From: Fistulifera solaris
Lineage: Eukaryota > Bacillariophyta > Bacillariophyceae > Naviculales > Stauroneidaceae
Length of the DNA stretch: 64,000 nt
Reading direction: 5' to 3'
NCBI GenBank assembly: GCA_030295235.1
Contig: AP026126.1
Coordinates: forward strand, 1,736,001-1,800,000
The first letter of the stretch is position 1; each line of letters starts with the position of its first letter. The position numbers and the translations under genes are program-made. Below the pieces are notes generated by a model. It ran no database searches. It saw nothing but the letters and a program-made list of their open reading frames with translations, and was not told the origin of the DNA. This document shows, piece after piece, positions 4,678-55,792 of this stretch.

Positions 4678-5150
4678 CCAGATTGGTGATGCATGTGTCG
4701 GGCGTTTTTTGCTTTCAGTAGAAAGGTAATTGTAAGCGAAGGGCTAGTCGTAGGAGCCTAGCGTAATTGCCAACTAGAGTGTGTTGTGATTTTTTTGGTC
4801 TTGATCCATATTTTGTTCCGTGATTAATTCACGGTGTCGTGTGTCGTGTCCCATCGCTGTCTCAAACCCGCGTGTCCGGATCTTGTATATTGCTGAGTAC
4901 TTTGTTTACCACAGCACGAAAAGGAGGAGATTTGTGCTTAGCGCTTAATAACCGCTATGATATATCCAAACAAGTAAAAATATTGAATACAGTATTTGTG
5001 ATTATTCAGTTCCGGGCAAAGCACAAATGCTCGCACTTCAAACTTTTTGCGATGATGCTCGTCAACCCATTAAACGCACAACCGTCCTTTCAATCAATAC
5101 TTTTATAGACGGATCGATCGACCCATCCTTCATTGACAGTTTTAAAAGCC
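4678..5150. other. Intergenic, promoter of Kelch-BTB gene
   Basis: AT-rich, no convincing ORF. TTGTAAGCGAAG at about 4730 partly resembles the left box of the dispersed 53-bp element. No other feature seen. Confidence 0.4.
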
Positions 5151-7174
5151 ATGGAAGAATTCAATCATCAGGCTGATGATTTAACTGCAGAAACGCGCAA
5201 TAACCGTCCGCCCGCTATAGCTGCAGGTGTACCGCCAGCAGAAGTGCAGGCGCCGTCCCGGATAGAAGAATTTGCTGCTTCGAACATTGCTTCCAATTCT
5301 CAGGCTCGTCTGCGTCAACAAGCGCACGCAAATATACCGAGTATACACCACTTTCACGATCCGCCGTCCGCGGTCCGATTTCAAGCTCCTCCGCAGCGAG
5401 TCGTTGCTCCTTCGATCGCCCCCCTGGAAAGAAATAATGTACCAGCGGACCGTCGAGAGGCCCGCGCTCTTCCCCCGCCCGTTCGACAAGCAAATCGAGA
5501 CATAATCATTCCGGAACATTCCGTCGATGGAGATGCTGGTACATTGTGCAGTGAAAGCAACGAGGATGAAGTGTTTGGACCATCGGGCTGGAGTCAAGTC
5601 GAGATGGCTCGCGAACCAGGAGGCGCACCATCAATAGCTCCTTCTCCGCGTTCCTTACATGCTGGTGCGGTCTTGAATGGAGCAATGTATATTTTTGGTG
5701 GGTACGACGGTACGCAGCGTGTCAATACGTTCCATGCCTTTTCGTTCATCGAAAAGCGCTGGTCACCCGTACTTCCGTCTCCTCATTCGCCTCCTCCGCC
5801 GAGTCCTCGCGATCGGCATGTCGCTTTCGTGTTCGGCAACTCGTTTTACGTACATGGTGGATTCAATGGTCACTCACGGGTCGCCGACATGTTTGGGTTT
5901 GACTTTAGTACGATGACTTGGCGTGAAATCAGCATGTCGGGTATGACGGGTCGTGTGCCCTCACCGAGACACTCGCACTCGGCCGTGGTGTATGGCCATT
6001 CTTTATTCATCGCGTTTGGATATGACGGAAGTTACAAAAGTGATATTCATGAATACGATTTTGTAAATTCGCGTTGGAGTGCTGTTGCTGCTGGTGGTCG
6101 TCGGTGCGTATTTGCCATTCGTCTCTTTTTGCATACAAAGATTTTGTCAAGAAAGTTGATTCATTTTCAATCCTGCCTTTTACAGACCCCGCCCTCGCTA
6201 TCGCGCCACAACGGAAGTTCACAAGAATTACATGCTGGTGTTTGGAGGACACGATGGAGTTCGTCACTTATCGGACACCAATGTATTTGATCTTGAAACA
6301 AAAACCTGGTCGACTTTGATTACAGAAGGACCGACGCCAATGCCTCGAGACTCGCACGTATCGTGTATGCATGGTAACAGCATGTTTGTCTTTGCTGGGA
6401 GCACGGGTTCCGCTATGAATGACTTTTATGAGCTGCAATTGCCAGCCGGTACGCTGGATTCTTCAGCGGCGGCGCGATGGCGACCTATCAAGTCGTCGTC
6501 ACGTGACTTTGAACCTCGGCCTAGATTTTGTCATGTTGGTGTTGTACACGATGGAAGCTTGTATTGCTTTGGCGGCTATGATGGAAGAGATCGTCTCAAT
6601 GACTTTGTTCGTTTTGATTTTACGGTCTATGATTTAAGCTTTGAGCTGCCTCCTTCGACGCTCGTTTCGGACTTGCGATCGATGATAAACAACAGCACCT
6701 TATCGGATGTAACGTTTCTTGTGGAAGGACAGCCTGTTTATGCTCATAAGTTGATGCTGATGCGCTGCCCTTACTTTGAAGCTCTTTTTCTATGCAAAAT
6801 GCGCGAATCTCGAATGACGGAGATACCCGTTTCGCAAGTGAGTTATCCTGTCTTTATGTCGATTTTGGAATACCTGTACACGGATCAAGTGAAGATGTCG
6901 ACAAGCAATGCCATGGATATATTTGTTGCTGCCGATTTGTTCTGCATTCCTCGCTTGAAGACGATGTGCGAGAAGCACATGTTACAGTCTATAACGGTTG
7001 ACAATGCGGCTTCTATCTTTTATGCTGCTGATATGCATAGTGCAGCCGCGTTGCGTCAAAAGGCAAAAAAAGTACGTCGTCTCACATTTTGAAGAGGTAT
7101 CAAAGTCTAGCACCTTCGAAGAAATGGGGCGGAACAACATTGAATTGGTCTTTGAATTGTTGCAAAGTCGATAA
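5151..7174 (+). CDS. Kelch-repeat BTB/POZ protein
   Basis: Exon 1 is 5151-6103, the intron 6104-6185 (82 nt, GTGCGT...TTTTACAG), exon 2 from 6186. A disordered N-terminus (about 170 aa) is followed by Kelch repeats with the YIFGGYDG, YVHGGFNG, FIAFGYDG, LVFGGHDG and YCFGGYDG blades, then a BTB domain (DVTFLVEGQPVYAHK) and the start of a BACK-like helix. This is the LZTR1-like order; such proteins act as CUL3 ubiquitin-ligase adaptors (family knowledge). As read, the protein ends at 7092. Removing one A from the A7 run at 7065-7071 extends it to a stop at 7172-7174 with the family-typical tail FEEMGRNNIELVFELL, so the A7 is probably one base too long. Start is the first ATG (MEEFNHQ). Confidence 0.88.
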
Positions 7175-12357: not shown

Positions 12358-13078
12358 TACTCTTGGTTAGAATCGCCTCTTGATAGGAATCAAAGAATGA
12401 AACAGCTCTTTGATAGATCGTTGTTGTTGTGCTTTTTTGTTTGAATGATACATGCTTTATGATACCGTGATGTGCATAGATTGATGATGTGATTTTCCCG
12501 TTGTCGGAGAGAAATATTGCCAAACATTGAAACAAGTTCGGTTCGCGTTGTCGTGCTGTCATTCTAGATTACATTGTGTATCAGAATAGGCCTTTTGCAT
12601 TCAACAGGGGCGATTCTCATTGACAACGAGAGTGTGAATGCCCAAAGCGTCATCGCTTGGTGGAAAAAAGAAGTCGCCAGAAGCGAAAACGTGCAACTCT
12701 TTGCTTGTCGTACTGGTAACCAAATTCTTCCTACAACCTAGACTCAAACTTTATAGTGCGCTGCCATCCGTACGTCCACCGGGTACCGGTACCGGTACCG
12801 GTACCTGGTATCGGTGCACATGCAGCCGCGAAATCATCATCGGGAACGCATGAAGTGGATGAAAGACGAAAGACCAGAAAGACCATACCAGGTACCGTAG
12901 TAGGCGGAAAAGGAATTACCTGGTACCGGTACCGATTGGGCCCTAAGAACTTGGTTCATTAGCTTATTGCGTTCTTACTTTCAGACCAACGAAGACCCAG
13001 GGAAGAGAGTGCAGCGAAGAGGCACAAACGAGAGTCTTTCCCTGGTCGGGCAACTAGTTTTTGCAGTGACGCTTCGTC
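12358..13078. other. Divergent intergenic with KpnI-palindrome cluster
   Basis: Promoter region between the hydrolase (minus) and the GNAT gene (plus). No supported ORF. Its main content is the GGTACC/TACC(A/T)GGTA cluster annotated separately. Confidence 0.5.
12781..12925. repeat. GGTACC tandem and three TACC(A/T)GGTA palindromes
   Basis: Four overlapping GGTACC palindromes form a perfect (GGTACC)n tract at 12782-12806, running into TACCTGGTA (12802-12810). Further exact copies lie at 12886-12894 (TACCAGGTA) and 12917-12925 (TACCTGGTA, again followed by GGTACCGGTACC). The same 9-mer recurs at 7436, 36513, 41430, 58709, 58959 and 60329, always outside genes. Function unknown: a protein-binding site, a recombination hotspot or a cruciform are possibilities. 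Confidence 0.85.
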
Positions 13079-16947: not shown

Positions 16948-17000
16948 TAAGAAACCCAAAGTAGACCGTCAATATTTCCAAGACTGCATTTCCGTTATGA
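16948..17000 (+). repeat. Degenerate copy of the 53-bp dispersed element
   Basis: Right half reads CAAGACTGCATTTCCGTTAT then GA (consensus CAAGACTGGATTTCAGTCAT then GA). The left half is weak. It lies 172 bp before the clear copy at 17120, matching the paired arrangement at the other loci. Confidence 0.45.
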
Positions 17001-17119
17001 ATCGATATTCTTCCGAGTGAGACTGCAACCTAACACTTTTTCGTTCTGCCATTTCATATTGCAATACACAAGTCGATTAGGATGTCGGAAAACGGAACGG
17101 ATCATTGTCTTCCGTAATT

Positions 17120-17173
17120 ACTATCGACGCCAAGTTAAGGCGGCCTTTCGCCACGACTCCATTTCAGTCATGA
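17120..17173 (+). repeat. 53-bp dispersed element, copy A
   Basis: Begins ACTAT, has CAAGTTAAGGCGGCCTTT in the middle, then GCCACGACTCCATTTCAG and ends GTCATGA. 54 bp. Located upstream of the HSP90-DUF2009 gene, which starts at 16503 on the minus strand. Confidence 0.75.
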
Positions 17174-17889
17174 ACACATCATCACCCGCTGTGCGAAATG
17201 AAATAAAAATCTATTAGCCATGCTAGGAGCATGTTATTCGCGGTCAATCTCTTACAAATTACAATCGTTTCTGCTTTTTGGATTCTAGAAAAGGAGACTA
17301 TCTGCTTGTTGAATATCTTGGCGTTGCGGACCTGGAGTCATTGGTGGATCCACCAAGGAACAGTAGAGAAGATCGGTGTGCTCGCTCAAAAGTAGACTGA
17401 TCTTGTGTACCCATTTCGTCATCACAGCAGCAACGATTGAATGTCGATCGTCAACAGACAAGCGAGTCAAGGCCTTGACACGGTTTCGGAGACGCAGCGG
17501 GTCCATCAAACTCTCCAAGTTTCGCACTAATAGCTCGTCGTTGCAAGGGTATTCCGTACGATAAGACTTAAATGAAACATCCAAATGAGCAGAACTGGAC
17601 GAATAGGGTCATCTAACAGAAGACATGATTTCTGGAGCGGAACTCCTAATGCATTACATTCGTCGTCTCAATCCTGGTGTGCATGTATCGTTGGCTCATC
17701 GTACACAGTTGCAACAACAACAACCGATCCACTGGAGAAACTGGTCAGTATCGATCGTCGACCTCCATCGAACTTGCAACTGAACCAAATGGATCGGGAG
17801 AGCGACTGGACATATCTGGCGGTCGAAACCGTGGGAATGGTTTCAAGGCGTAGATGTGGATGGTGAAACTCCAGTAGTGAGTGCTTGGT

Positions 17890-35922: not shown

Positions 35923-36333
35923 AATTGTTACACTCTGTCGGACTTTTTATCTGTATATGAGAAACAGTGAACGAAAAGTCGTTTTTGTGGTACGCTCTAT
36001 TGTAGTTGTTGCTTGTCCATTCACCACAACAACCTCGTTGGACGAAAGAGCACAGCAGTATGCAGTGTGCAGCGTGCACCGCGAAGATCCTTGCTTCTGG
36101 TTAAACGTTTCATGACAGACAGTCAGTCAGTCTTGAAGTCTTCCAGCCTACACTTTGATCGACAATAAACTTTGAAGCCAGCGATAGCGACACCGAACGA
36201 TTGATCGAGCTGTGATTTAATAGTCTAATTGAAAATAAATTCAAGCAGATCCAGCAGAACAGTTGTTTGCGAGAAAGTTACGACACGACAGGGATGTGAA
36301 AAAACACAAGAATGAGGAGTAAACAGTGGTGGC

Positions 36334-36384
36334 TCGTGACTGAAATTAAGTCTTGAAAAGGTCGCCTACCCTTTTACTTACAGT
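36334..36384 (-). repeat. 53-bp dispersed element, copy E
   Basis: Read on the minus strand: ACTGTAAGTAAAAGGGTAGG, then CGACCTTTTCAAGACTTA, ending ATTTCAGTCACGA. 51 bp. Only one base differs in the terminal 12-mer. It shares GGTAAAAG and GCGACCTTT-type blocks with copy C1 at 55507. Confidence 0.7.
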
Positions 36385-36512
36385 ATACAACCAGAAGGGG
36401 ACGACAACCTATCGATTTTCGACATCGGTGACCGAGATGTGTGCATTTCAAATAATGTAAAGGAAATTTTTCATGGCAACTGGCAGTGCTGATAGCAACA
36501 CATTTTGGACTT

Positions 36513-38569: not shown

Positions 38570-39070
38570 TCAAGAAATCTAGACTGTTTTTACAATAGAA
38601 ACGAATTGCACACTAATATGACACATGAAAAGCCAGAAAAAGATGAAAATCTAATTTCTTATCAAAAATCTTCAAAAATATTTGCTTACATTGTCGACAT
38701 TCCGTTAGGAACGACCATACTACGATGACAGCACCGCTTCCCGTCTGCTCAGCGAAGTTAAGCATCGTCAGGCCCGGTTAGTACTACGGTGGGGGACCAC
38801 GTTGGAATCCCGGTGTTGTTCTTTGCCGATTGACCGCCGACCTCCAACAATCGTCACATCACCCATCAATCATCACATCGTACATCGTCATCAATAAAAA
38901 TAAATAATTTATTCGAAAAACAGCACGCTGTCATTCCTCTAGGCATAAAGAGTTTCAGGAAAAATTTTTGTGGCAGCCGTAATAAGCCTTAAATCGACAA
39001 GACTCGAGGCAAAAGAAAAGAGGTGATAGCGCCTATTTGCCCGATTTTCCTGCGTGTCAACATCGTCAAA
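38570..39070. other. Intergenic carrying the 5S rRNA gene
   Basis: Apart from 5S rRNA (38709-38821) nothing is recognised. The A-rich tract ATAAAAATAAATAA at about 38893 follows the 5S gene. Confidence 0.5.
38709..38821 (+). rRNA. 5S ribosomal RNA (possibly slightly degenerate)
   Basis: Contains the near-invariant 5S core GCGAAGTTAAGCATCGTCAG, GCCCGGTTAGTACTACGGTG and GGGGACCACG. Ends pair as helix I: GAACGAC (38709-38715) with GTTGTTC (38815-38821). Its 113 nt is about five shorter than usual 5S RNA. CACGTTGGAATCCCGGTGTT appears to lack a G in a run where other eukaryotic 5S genes have more. No TTTT terminator follows closely, so it may be a lone dispersed copy or a pseudogene. RNA polymerase III transcription is expected from internal control sequences. 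Confidence 0.85.
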
Positions 39071-44736: not shown

Positions 44737-44789
44737 ACTATCTTGTAAAGTGTAAGAGACACTTCGTCAAGACTGGATTTCAGTCATGA
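44737..44789 (+). repeat. 53-bp dispersed element, copy B1
   Basis: Starts ACTATCTTGTAAAGTGTAAG, continues AGACACTTCGTCAAGACTGG and ends ATTTCAGTCATGA. 53 bp. Together with copies A, B2, C1, C2 and E it defines the family: fixed ACTAT start, AAAGTGTAAG left box, CAAGACTGG/CACGACTGG middle and TTTCAGTCATGA end. Confidence 0.85.
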
Positions 44790-44981
44790 ACAGCAAAATC
44801 TTGCAACTCACGTTTGACATCGTCGCATAATCGATGGTCGATGGTCAATAATTTTCCGTAACAAATGTGCATTCTAATCTAGCAGGGCTCATGATAACCT
44901 GAAGCTACTTCTAAATCTGAAAGGCATTGGACGATTTTCCCTTGGTTTGCTTTTTGGAAGCTGCGTTTCACCGAAATAAAG

Positions 44982-45035
44982 ACTATTGTGTAAAGTGTCA
45001 GCGAGAATTAGTCACGGCAGGATTTTCAGTCATGA
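44982..45035 (+). repeat. 53-bp dispersed element, copy B2
   Basis: Starts ACTATTGTGTAAAGTGTCAG, continues CGAGAATTAGTCACGGCAGG and ends ATTTTCAGTCATGA (one extra T). 245 bp after copy B1, same orientation. Confidence 0.85.
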
Positions 45036-48212: not shown

Positions 48213-50048
48213 CGTGGTTTAATTGTTTGGTTTGCAGTATTTATATACAGTGCCAGAATGGCGAATTATTCCTGACACGACATGATCGAAACTTTCTGAC
48301 CGTGTAGCGATGTAATGAGGACAATAGAAACGTTTCCGTTATTCAAAGAAAAGGAAGATTTGAATCTGATAGATTGATGACGTGACGAATTTTCTGTCAA
48401 AAGGAAGAAGGGAAATAATAACGAATTCGTCAGCGAAAATTGAAAGGCAGAACTTGACAAATGGCTCCGCAATTTCAAATTCAAAGAAGATGCATCAGTG
48501 CTTCAATCTAAAGATATAAACAATAACGCAAAGACTAAGACTGATTCATTGACCAAGCAACGTTTTGAATGTGTGGCCCTGCCTCGATGAGAACGCAAGA
48601 AGGCAGAATTTGCATCGGAATTCATGACTGAAACCAGTTCACGAACCAGTTCACCACGTCCTCAATTATGTCGCCTTTGCAACAACGCCACGGCAAACGA
48701 TCGCAATCGCCGCACTCGAAATAAACTTTTTATTCAATATCGTTCCTTAATCACTCACCTTGTTTCGGATGTGTCAAAGGAAGGAAAGAATTTTGTTGGA
48801 GCTTGAAATTTGTCTTCAAAAATTGGATCGGTGGAGAGAGTGGAAAAGACGTCGGTAAAACAGACGCGAGAAGGCGAGAGCTCGAGGAGTTCGGAGGACG
48901 ACCGAACAAGCAAAGCGGAGGAGTTTACGTCGTGCATCCGCATGTAGGCGGTATGACGACAGACTACACTATACAGAAATACTGTACCTTGCGATTTCGG
49001 ACGGCGCGTGAATCTCGAACCTGCAACAAAGCCGGAGCCAGTAAAGTAGTGAAGACAGAAACTATCTGTCCGTGAGTGGGTGTCGACAAAAATGATACAC
49101 TTTAAGTACTTATTAATACGATCTGATTGAACCTTCTTTATTTTTATCACAGTCCCCGATGTTGCGCAAACTCGAACTTCCCACTGACGGTTCTTAAAAT
49201 AGAACGATCTGCTTTTGATTCCCAAGACAGTTGGTTTCTGCAATCCAGAAAGAAGACTTTCCGTGGTGTATTGTGTACTCTGAAAATAATGTTCTGACAC
49301 GCAGAAGACGACGATGGACGGGAAAAAGACGAACGCACTTGGAACTTTCCCCACAGAACTTTTTCTTCCCGGTCCGGCAACAGGAATTTGGGAGGAATGT
49401 GTGGTGGCAAAAACACCGACGAAAAGGTAAGGAGTAAACTAAATCCTTCCACGAATGACGAGGTCTTTTATGAGTCTAAGCCTCCGCAGGCAACAACATC
49501 AAAGCATTGAAAAGTGTATGAAGTAAAGACTAATCATGTAATTTAGACCATGTGTTTTATCTACTGCGCTCTTATGAACCTAAATAGACAAGGAGGGACA
49601 CTACATCATCGAGTTTTGTTGCAGGATCGGACGATGTGTTCGAGGGTAGGTTTTACTACCAGTATCATCAAAACCATGAAGCATGAAGTTACCTAGTAGT
49701 CACTTACTCTTTTATCTATAAACTGTAGCTAAGTTAGTCACGACCAATTTGCGGGCACGAGTCAGTCGTCAAGGATATTGATGCAGCTAAAGATGACGAC
49801 TTTTACCTGACTCGGGTAGAACATTCAATCACGGTAGGTGTTAACCTGCGTCATCTCTTTCGTTTTTACACCGCAACAGCAACACCACATCCACCAACCA
49901 ACGACAGCATCAAGATTTGCACATCACGAAACGTTTCAAACGGAGGTGACCTTGTTTCGGACCAAACAAGTGAATTTCGGAATATTTATCCTACAGCGCT
50001 GTGAATTGCGTCGAATTGAAAGTCGTTAGGTACCTTTGAAAAAACAGA
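48213..50048. other. Long intergenic region
   Basis: 1.8 kb. The cyclin promoter holds the core 12-mer of the dispersed element on the minus strand (48622-48633, TTTCAGTCATGA) without a good left half. A 199-codon minus-strand ORF (48755-49354) has no recognised domain and poor coding character. The right end is the ThrRS promoter. Confidence 0.45.
48622..48633 (-). repeat. Core 12-mer of the dispersed element
   Basis: Exact TTTCAGTCATGA on the minus strand, preceded by GAACTGG; the left box is not recognisable. It lies 410 bp upstream of the cyclin start on the same strand as the gene. Confidence 0.5.
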
Positions 50049-55506: not shown

Positions 55507-55559
55507 ACTATGGGTAAAAGTGTAAGCGACCTTTGACCACGAATGGATTTCAGTCATGA
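55507..55559 (+). repeat. 53-bp dispersed element, copy C1
   Basis: Starts ACTATGGGTAAAAGTGTAAG, continues CGACCTTTGACCACGAATGG and ends ATTTCAGTCATGA. 53 bp; closest to the family consensus. Confidence 0.87.
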
Positions 55560-55739: not shown

Positions 55740-55792
55740 ACTATAGCCAATAACTGTTAACCGTTTTTGGCAAGACTGAATTTCAGTCATGA
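55740..55792 (+). repeat. 53-bp dispersed element, copy C2
   Basis: Starts ACTATAGCCAATAACTGTTA, continues ACCGTTTTTGGCAAGACTGA and ends ATTTCAGTCATGA. 53 bp, 233 bp after C1, 97 bp before the MATE start codon. Confidence 0.83.

Follow-up and report, generated by a model that had tools for sequence, protein, structure and literature searches.

The monomers of the BIV160/Cg170 satellites of bivalves are 160-170 bp long. As far as the available text of PMC5139131 goes, these monomers are diverged and contain two well-conserved motifs, they occur in arrays as well as in the form of singles, and they are tied to small mobile elements. The Cg_HINE elements of the Pacific oyster, which are non-autonomous Helentrons, consist of short arrays that are dispersed through the assembly as central repeats, with a left module on one side and on the other a right one that carries a palindrome (available part of PMC7492417). 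In the excerpts of PMC3411249, PMC4537270 and PMC5844308, the TCAST satellite of Tribolium has repeats in euchromatin beside genes, which they were proposed to affect. The same portion of PMC5139131 describes the CENP-B box as a motif inside a satellite monomer that binds a transposase-related protein. All four systems share features with a sequence family of the oil-rich diatom Fistulifera solaris, the genome of which is referred to as allodiploid in the accessible part of PMC13276009.

The window, by which we mean the whole stretch of 64 kb that was analyzed, corresponds to C6:1736001-1800000 of the 51.7-Mb F. solaris genome, in which a 25-nt primer published for this species (PMC13276009) has a single, exact match. 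A preliminary description had listed six copies of a dispersed element of around 53 bp in this window, and all six are present there. The exact 12-mer TTTCAGTCATGA lies within five of them, all on the plus strand, and occurs once more at 48622 on the minus strand; the copy at 36334 (minus strand) ends with TTTCAGTCACGA, at one mismatch from the 12-mer. An nhmmer profile was built from 39 of the 42 exact 12-mer copies (three were too near the end of a stretch) in the window and in twenty 10-kb loci that had been picked by the presence of the 12-mer. From 264 kb it recovered 73 stretches (E<0.01). Its matches in the window are all six full copies, plus two partners that are worn and had been overlooked, and the one at 48622 (Table 1). 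The latter is probably not a member of the family and represents the 12-mer alone, given the low score and the fact that the surrounding block is almost identical in homoeologous C5. This block upstream of the cyclin gene (48560-48720) is possibly a conserved 5' UTR or a small upstream reading frame. The window copies are arranged as pairs, 173-246 bp apart, and are in fact worn pairs of repeat units of which little is left besides the core.

Table 1. Copies of the core in the window (positions counted from its first letter) and places of a second tandem family.
Feature	Position	Strand	Basis
Full core copy (left box and dyad)	17120..17173	+	nhmmer 47.2 bits over 17104-17190; exact 12-mer at 17162
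Worn right-box copy, upstream partner of 17120 copy (173 bp)	16975..17022	+	nhmmer 15.0 bits; repeat families D3/D4
Core copy, 12-mer with one mismatch	36334..36391	-	nhmmer 18.9 bits over 36328-36391
Worn copy of core, paired with 36334 copy (~224 bp)	36103..36179	-	nhmmer 21.7 bits; spacing
Full core copy, first of worn pair	44737..44789	+	nhmmer 45.5 bits; exact 12-mer at 44778
Full core copy, second of pair (246 bp on)	44982..45035	+	nhmmer 38.5 bits; exact 12-mer at 45024
Full core copy, first of worn pair	55507..55559	+	nhmmer 53.1 bits; exact 12-mer at 55548
Full core copy, second of pair (233 bp on)	55740..55792	+	nhmmer 41.5 bits; exact 12-mer at 55781
12-mer alone, in conserved block upstream of cyclin gene (probably no family member)	48622..48633	-	nhmmer 16.5 bits
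Second tandem family	L031/L030 C5 insert (C5 about 1882350-1883250); L011 about 5020-5170; L038 left flank		

The genome-wide scan yielded 993 matches to the exact 12-mer (486 + 507), compared to 4 (2 + 2) for the reversed control, which excludes a chance-level outcome. For the right box, with up to three mismatches, 2,402 genome matches (1,206 + 1,196) were obtained versus 0 + 2 for the control, an average density of one per ~21.5 kb, and for the left box, with up to one mismatch, 178 (95 + 83) versus 0 + 0. The element is thus real and far commoner than the window could reveal. The exact sequence CACGACTGNATTTCAGTCATGA gave 0 matches in viral_contigs and genome_contigs, neither of which is a diatom collection, and the 12-mer as a text string occurs in two papers that, judging from their titles, deal with unrelated subjects. 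The palindromic form TCAYGACT-N7-AGTCRTGA was found at 172 sites versus 0 in the control, part of which stem from a different repeat of ~1,060 bp. More explicitly, the dyad TCATGACTGGGAGTGAGTCATGA is located at C1:1575435, 1576498 and 1577564, at C1:2643302 and 2644362, and at C5:4851; within the two clusters on C1 it recurs about every 1,060 bp, and it belongs to another repeat, or to a gene family, whose arms are identical.

The core consists of a left box, TTTACTATRGNCCAAAGTGTT, and, at a near-fixed distance, a right box that forms a DNA dyad, TCAYGACTG-NATTT-CAGTCRTGA, most often seen as CACGACTG...CAGTCATG. Its anatomy was analyzed in 141 copies, obtained from 158 profile matches by removing 17 with more than 6 dyad mismatches, a selection that favours intact dyads. 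The span from ACTAT to TCATGA was 51-55 bp in 104 of the 121 copies that have an ACTNT box, which bears out the constant length described before; such a box was absent from 20 of the 141. The earlier suggestion of two binding boxes at a set distance agrees with the left box, the dyad and their near-constant span, and the binding itself is a prediction. Dyad variants mostly have one arm altered at a time, and covariation of the arms was not observed: with 141 copies and 9 pairs, there were 5 Watson-Crick cells in which both positions had changed, and the changes were one-sided. This absence of covariation argues for symmetry at the DNA level, i.e. a predicted protein site, and against an RNA hairpin. 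Most simply, the dyad would be the site for a dimer. An RNA gene was rejected as well, as an Rfam search of the window at the gathering score returned a 5S rRNA alone and no family at the element copies, and a more permissive scan, applied to five loci with arrays, had nothing at E<=5 inside the arrays (two sub-threshold snoRNA matches both lay outside). The 5S rRNA gene (RF00001, 102 bits) is a single one, positioned between protein genes at 38707-38824. The left box may have been encountered before: a promoter study in the same species reported, in the part of the text available, the motif TABASTA (PMC5935921), whose complement TASTVTA agrees with the left-box forms TACTATA and TACTGTA. The two may be the same sequence, but motifs of this length often turn up by chance.

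The distance between same-strand neighbours among the 141 copies was 204-258 bp in 70 of 81 cases, with three further distances at 417-427 bp and three at 624-678 bp, and the arrays contain one core per unit of ~220 bp. The family occurs as short head-to-tail arrays (one with up to 13 recognised cores, some of them weak), as worn pairs and as dispersed singles. Whole units, linkers included, are homologous between many arrays, so that the spacing can be attributed to tandem duplication. The 53-bp element is the best-preserved part of this tandem repeat and no free-standing unit. The proposal of an element with fixed ends had to be abandoned, since the homology of younger copies runs on both sides into the ~220-bp unit, and a MITE with 53-bp ends is out for the same reason. 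The flanking target-site duplications raised in the preliminary description were not seen beside the window copies by eye. Two other repeats were observed as well. An 18-bp tandem repeat forms a long array at 7-1260 of the window and is open in several frames, and a second tandem family, likewise dispersed, carries short inverted repeats resembling CCAGAAAATCTGGG and has dozens of genome matches that are about 70-96% identical (Table 1).

To compare the core with its linker, profiles of both were made from one set of 27 units; the other eight of the original 35, three of which came from the window, had been dropped beforehand as worn. In a search space that was mostly picked by the presence of the 12-mer, the core profile (59 positions) found 67 copies and the linker profile (141 positions) 27; in the window, which was not picked by the 12-mer in the analysis, the numbers were 5 and 0, respectively. 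Between loci, the mean divergence was 0.19 for the core and 0.275 for the linker, and the core was the less diverged of the two in 343 of 378 pairs, these being the non-independent pairs with more than 65% identity out of a total of 465. Among 35 pairs of neighbouring units within arrays, the values were 0.062 and 0.075 (P = 0.065). A conserved box inside diverged monomers is thus found between loci, and the difference within arrays is slight; given the near-equal change there, selection on the core inside arrays is unsupported. The clustering of array ends near the core is a trend alone (19 ends, one of 20 being left out because it was at a stretch edge; P about 0.05-0.07).

In keeping with the statement that all copies lie between genes, none of 77 copy midpoints (E<0.003) fell within the hexamer-based coding calls, which cover 65% of 279 kb. 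Considering intergenes flanked by strong calls, 11 of the 35 divergent ones contained copies, as did 15 of the 75 tandem ones and a single one of the 39 convergent (3'-3') ones, counts that come from loci mostly picked by the 12-mer and in which the convergent intergenes are the shorter. Seven neighbouring genes in the window were scanned (DnaJ-C11-like, PEX11, cyclin, SET-domain, MATE transporter, DUF2009 and FGGY kinase) and no common function was found among them. Short palindromic repeats rich in GGTACC/TACCGG recur in intergenes too, for instance at 12774-12819 of the window and near both array ends of L036.

The allodiploid genome allows a comparison of homoeologous regions, of which C6 with C5 and C1 with C2 were used. 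A worn orthologue of the 44982 copy is present in C5, and its conservation is no better than that of the flanks. Around the core at about 4980-5070 of L019, directly upstream of a phosphoglucose isomerase gene, ~90 bp are kept in the homoeologous L028 and both flanks are not. An orthologue search with 12 C1 stretches (the best 40 candidates) provided matches for L009, L018, L022, L023 and L005; it was repeated without the L011 stretch after the second repeat therein had swamped the first search. The match of L023 with C2 shows an even 86% identity over 260 bp. Among the C1 matches listed there were 57 exact 12-mers, 39 of which entered the analysis (the 18 left out belonged to array repeats or lay beyond 1.9 Mb, the end of the C2 matches listed) and 21 of which could be placed by anchors. 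For 10 of these 21 the orthologous C2 interval has an exact 12-mer on the same strand, the mean of the shifted control being 0.44. Given this retention and the homoeologue matches, several copies are probably older than the split of the two subgenomes. Retention by selection is suggestive only, as the observed value is not clearly above neutral decay: P is 0.004, 0.07, 0.13 and 0.2 at assumed neutral one-branch rates of 20%, 30%, 34% and 37%, respectively. The neutral baseline pools unequal intervals and is lowered by that of L021/L040 (0 of 1,896); without it, the baseline is 850 of 7,511 (11%, or about 34% for one branch; P = 0.13).

Copy number and orientation vary between homoeologues. The intergene at 55.2-55.9 kb of the window has two plus-strand copies on C6 and its C5 homoeologue (L033) an array of five minus-strand copies ~228 bp apart, together with one plus-strand copy. 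The array of L021 on C1 is absent from the C2 homoeologue, where 191 bp take the place of ~1,756 bp. These 191 bp are of different sequence, perhaps with a worn remnant in it, and no clean target-site duplication was seen there by eye; a clean insertion with target duplication was therefore rejected for L021. At other arrays we found flanking modules. A right module of ~145-180 bp is common to arrays on C2 (L034), C12 (L036) and C26 (L054), where it ends at nearly the same place, and contains a strong hairpin well inside and a weak one near the end. It has seven genome matches at 75-100%, the query included, and the four on C5, C10, C9 and C16 count as matches of the module itself, the sequence beside them lying outside the comparison. 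A left module of ~50 bp is common to C26 and C22. Three of the examined loci have the right module and two have the left; both occur together at L054, the left edge of which is the end of the examined stretch. From these common modules it follows that at least a few arrays are parts of composite, multi-copy elements, for which a Helentron-like HINE with central repeats is perhaps the nearest model. A foldback-type element was rejected, as inverted-repeat scans of eight array or cluster stretches and one homoeologous stretch revealed no consistent terminal inverted repeats. The idea that the copies are remains of a small mobile element thus survives in spirit: they are relics of a dispersed family, of which a few arrays have modules, and the relics themselves are tandem-repeat units.

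With slightly more than even confidence, we lean towards a dispersed, partly mobile, satellite-like family that is carried by mobile elements and has a two-box core for a putative dimeric protein. Composite elements, perhaps Helentron-like (HINE-like), would carry units into further intergenes, in which arrays would then expand and contract. A dimeric DNA-binding protein, for which a transposase or replication-initiator type of protein or a co-opted host factor are candidates, would grip the dyad and the left box. Because this putative binding would be needed for spread or array turnover, the core would stay alike among those copies that gave rise to others, and most single copies would wear away. 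Against spread as a repeat speaks the promoter of L019/L028, where the core is kept well beyond the flanks, which fits host use better, and at some promoters the core may serve the host in regulation. A more general version, in which a host transcription factor or chromatin protein recognises both boxes in front of genes and repeat-derived copies are now kept by selection at each place, would account for the avoidance of coding calls, for the scarcity of copies in convergent as compared to divergent and tandem intergenes (given the biased sample), for the footprint upstream of the phosphoglucose isomerase gene and for a 12-mer retention well over the shifted control. Nevertheless, we regard it as somewhat unlikely, since the 44982 copy is no better conserved than its surroundings, the retention has a P value between 0.004 and 0.2 depending on the assumed rate, copy number and orientation differ within the same intergene of two homoeologues and the scanned neighbour genes have no function in common.

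The conservation of the core could also be a mere effect of searching with it, the family being a passive satellite relic. The choice of 20 loci by the 12-mer and the similar rates of change of core and linker within arrays agree with this, but under even decay the linker profile, being 2.4 times longer, should have given more matches than the core profile and gave 27 versus 67; moreover, the same imbalance was seen in the window and the right boxes outnumber the control by 2,402 to 2, which makes the passive reading quite unlikely. The mean density of right boxes, and distances that stay close to 200-250 bp in worn pairs too, might bring to mind an origin of replication, an insulator or a site of chromosome architecture whose spacing of ~220 bp is set by chromatin. 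As tandem duplication of whole units with homologous linkers explains the spacing, such a role is very improbable. Finally, the near-fixed length and the dyad symmetry are what a MITE of 53 bp, or else a gene for a structured RNA, would display, an option that is scarcely credible given the homology past both ends, the absence by eye of flanking duplications at the window copies, the arms without covariation and the Rfam results for the window copies and the five array loci.

As one family has spread through a compact allodiploid genome, homoeologous intergene pairs constitute a natural experiment, in which satellite cores were kept, lost or moved and expression was shifted or not. Taken further, the two-box sites that derive from the satellite, over two thousand across both subgenomes, could be the binding sites of one mobile-element-derived dimeric protein that now helps to set promoter or chromatin state, with unequal repeat turnover altering the expression of homoeologues; this is a speculative proposal that we consider unlikely to hold.

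A diatom satellite was not met in a limited search of the literature, and one may be in print. The resemblance to BIV160/Cg170 is one of description and concerns an unrelated taxon; the F. solaris monomer measures ~220 bp and one of its boxes is a dyad. The likeness to Cg_HINE concerns the dispersed short arrays and, at the few loci where they were seen, the modules; a Helentron-type element would in addition have characteristic termini and insertion sites and an autonomous Rep/helicase partner. The bulk of TCAST is pericentromeric in Tribolium, whereas in the examined F. solaris sequence we found dispersed copies and short arrays. The CENP-B box, too, is likened to the core by description, the protein of the latter being putative. 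The structure reported here is already known in kind, as dispersed satellite-like DNA with conserved boxes has been described in animals.
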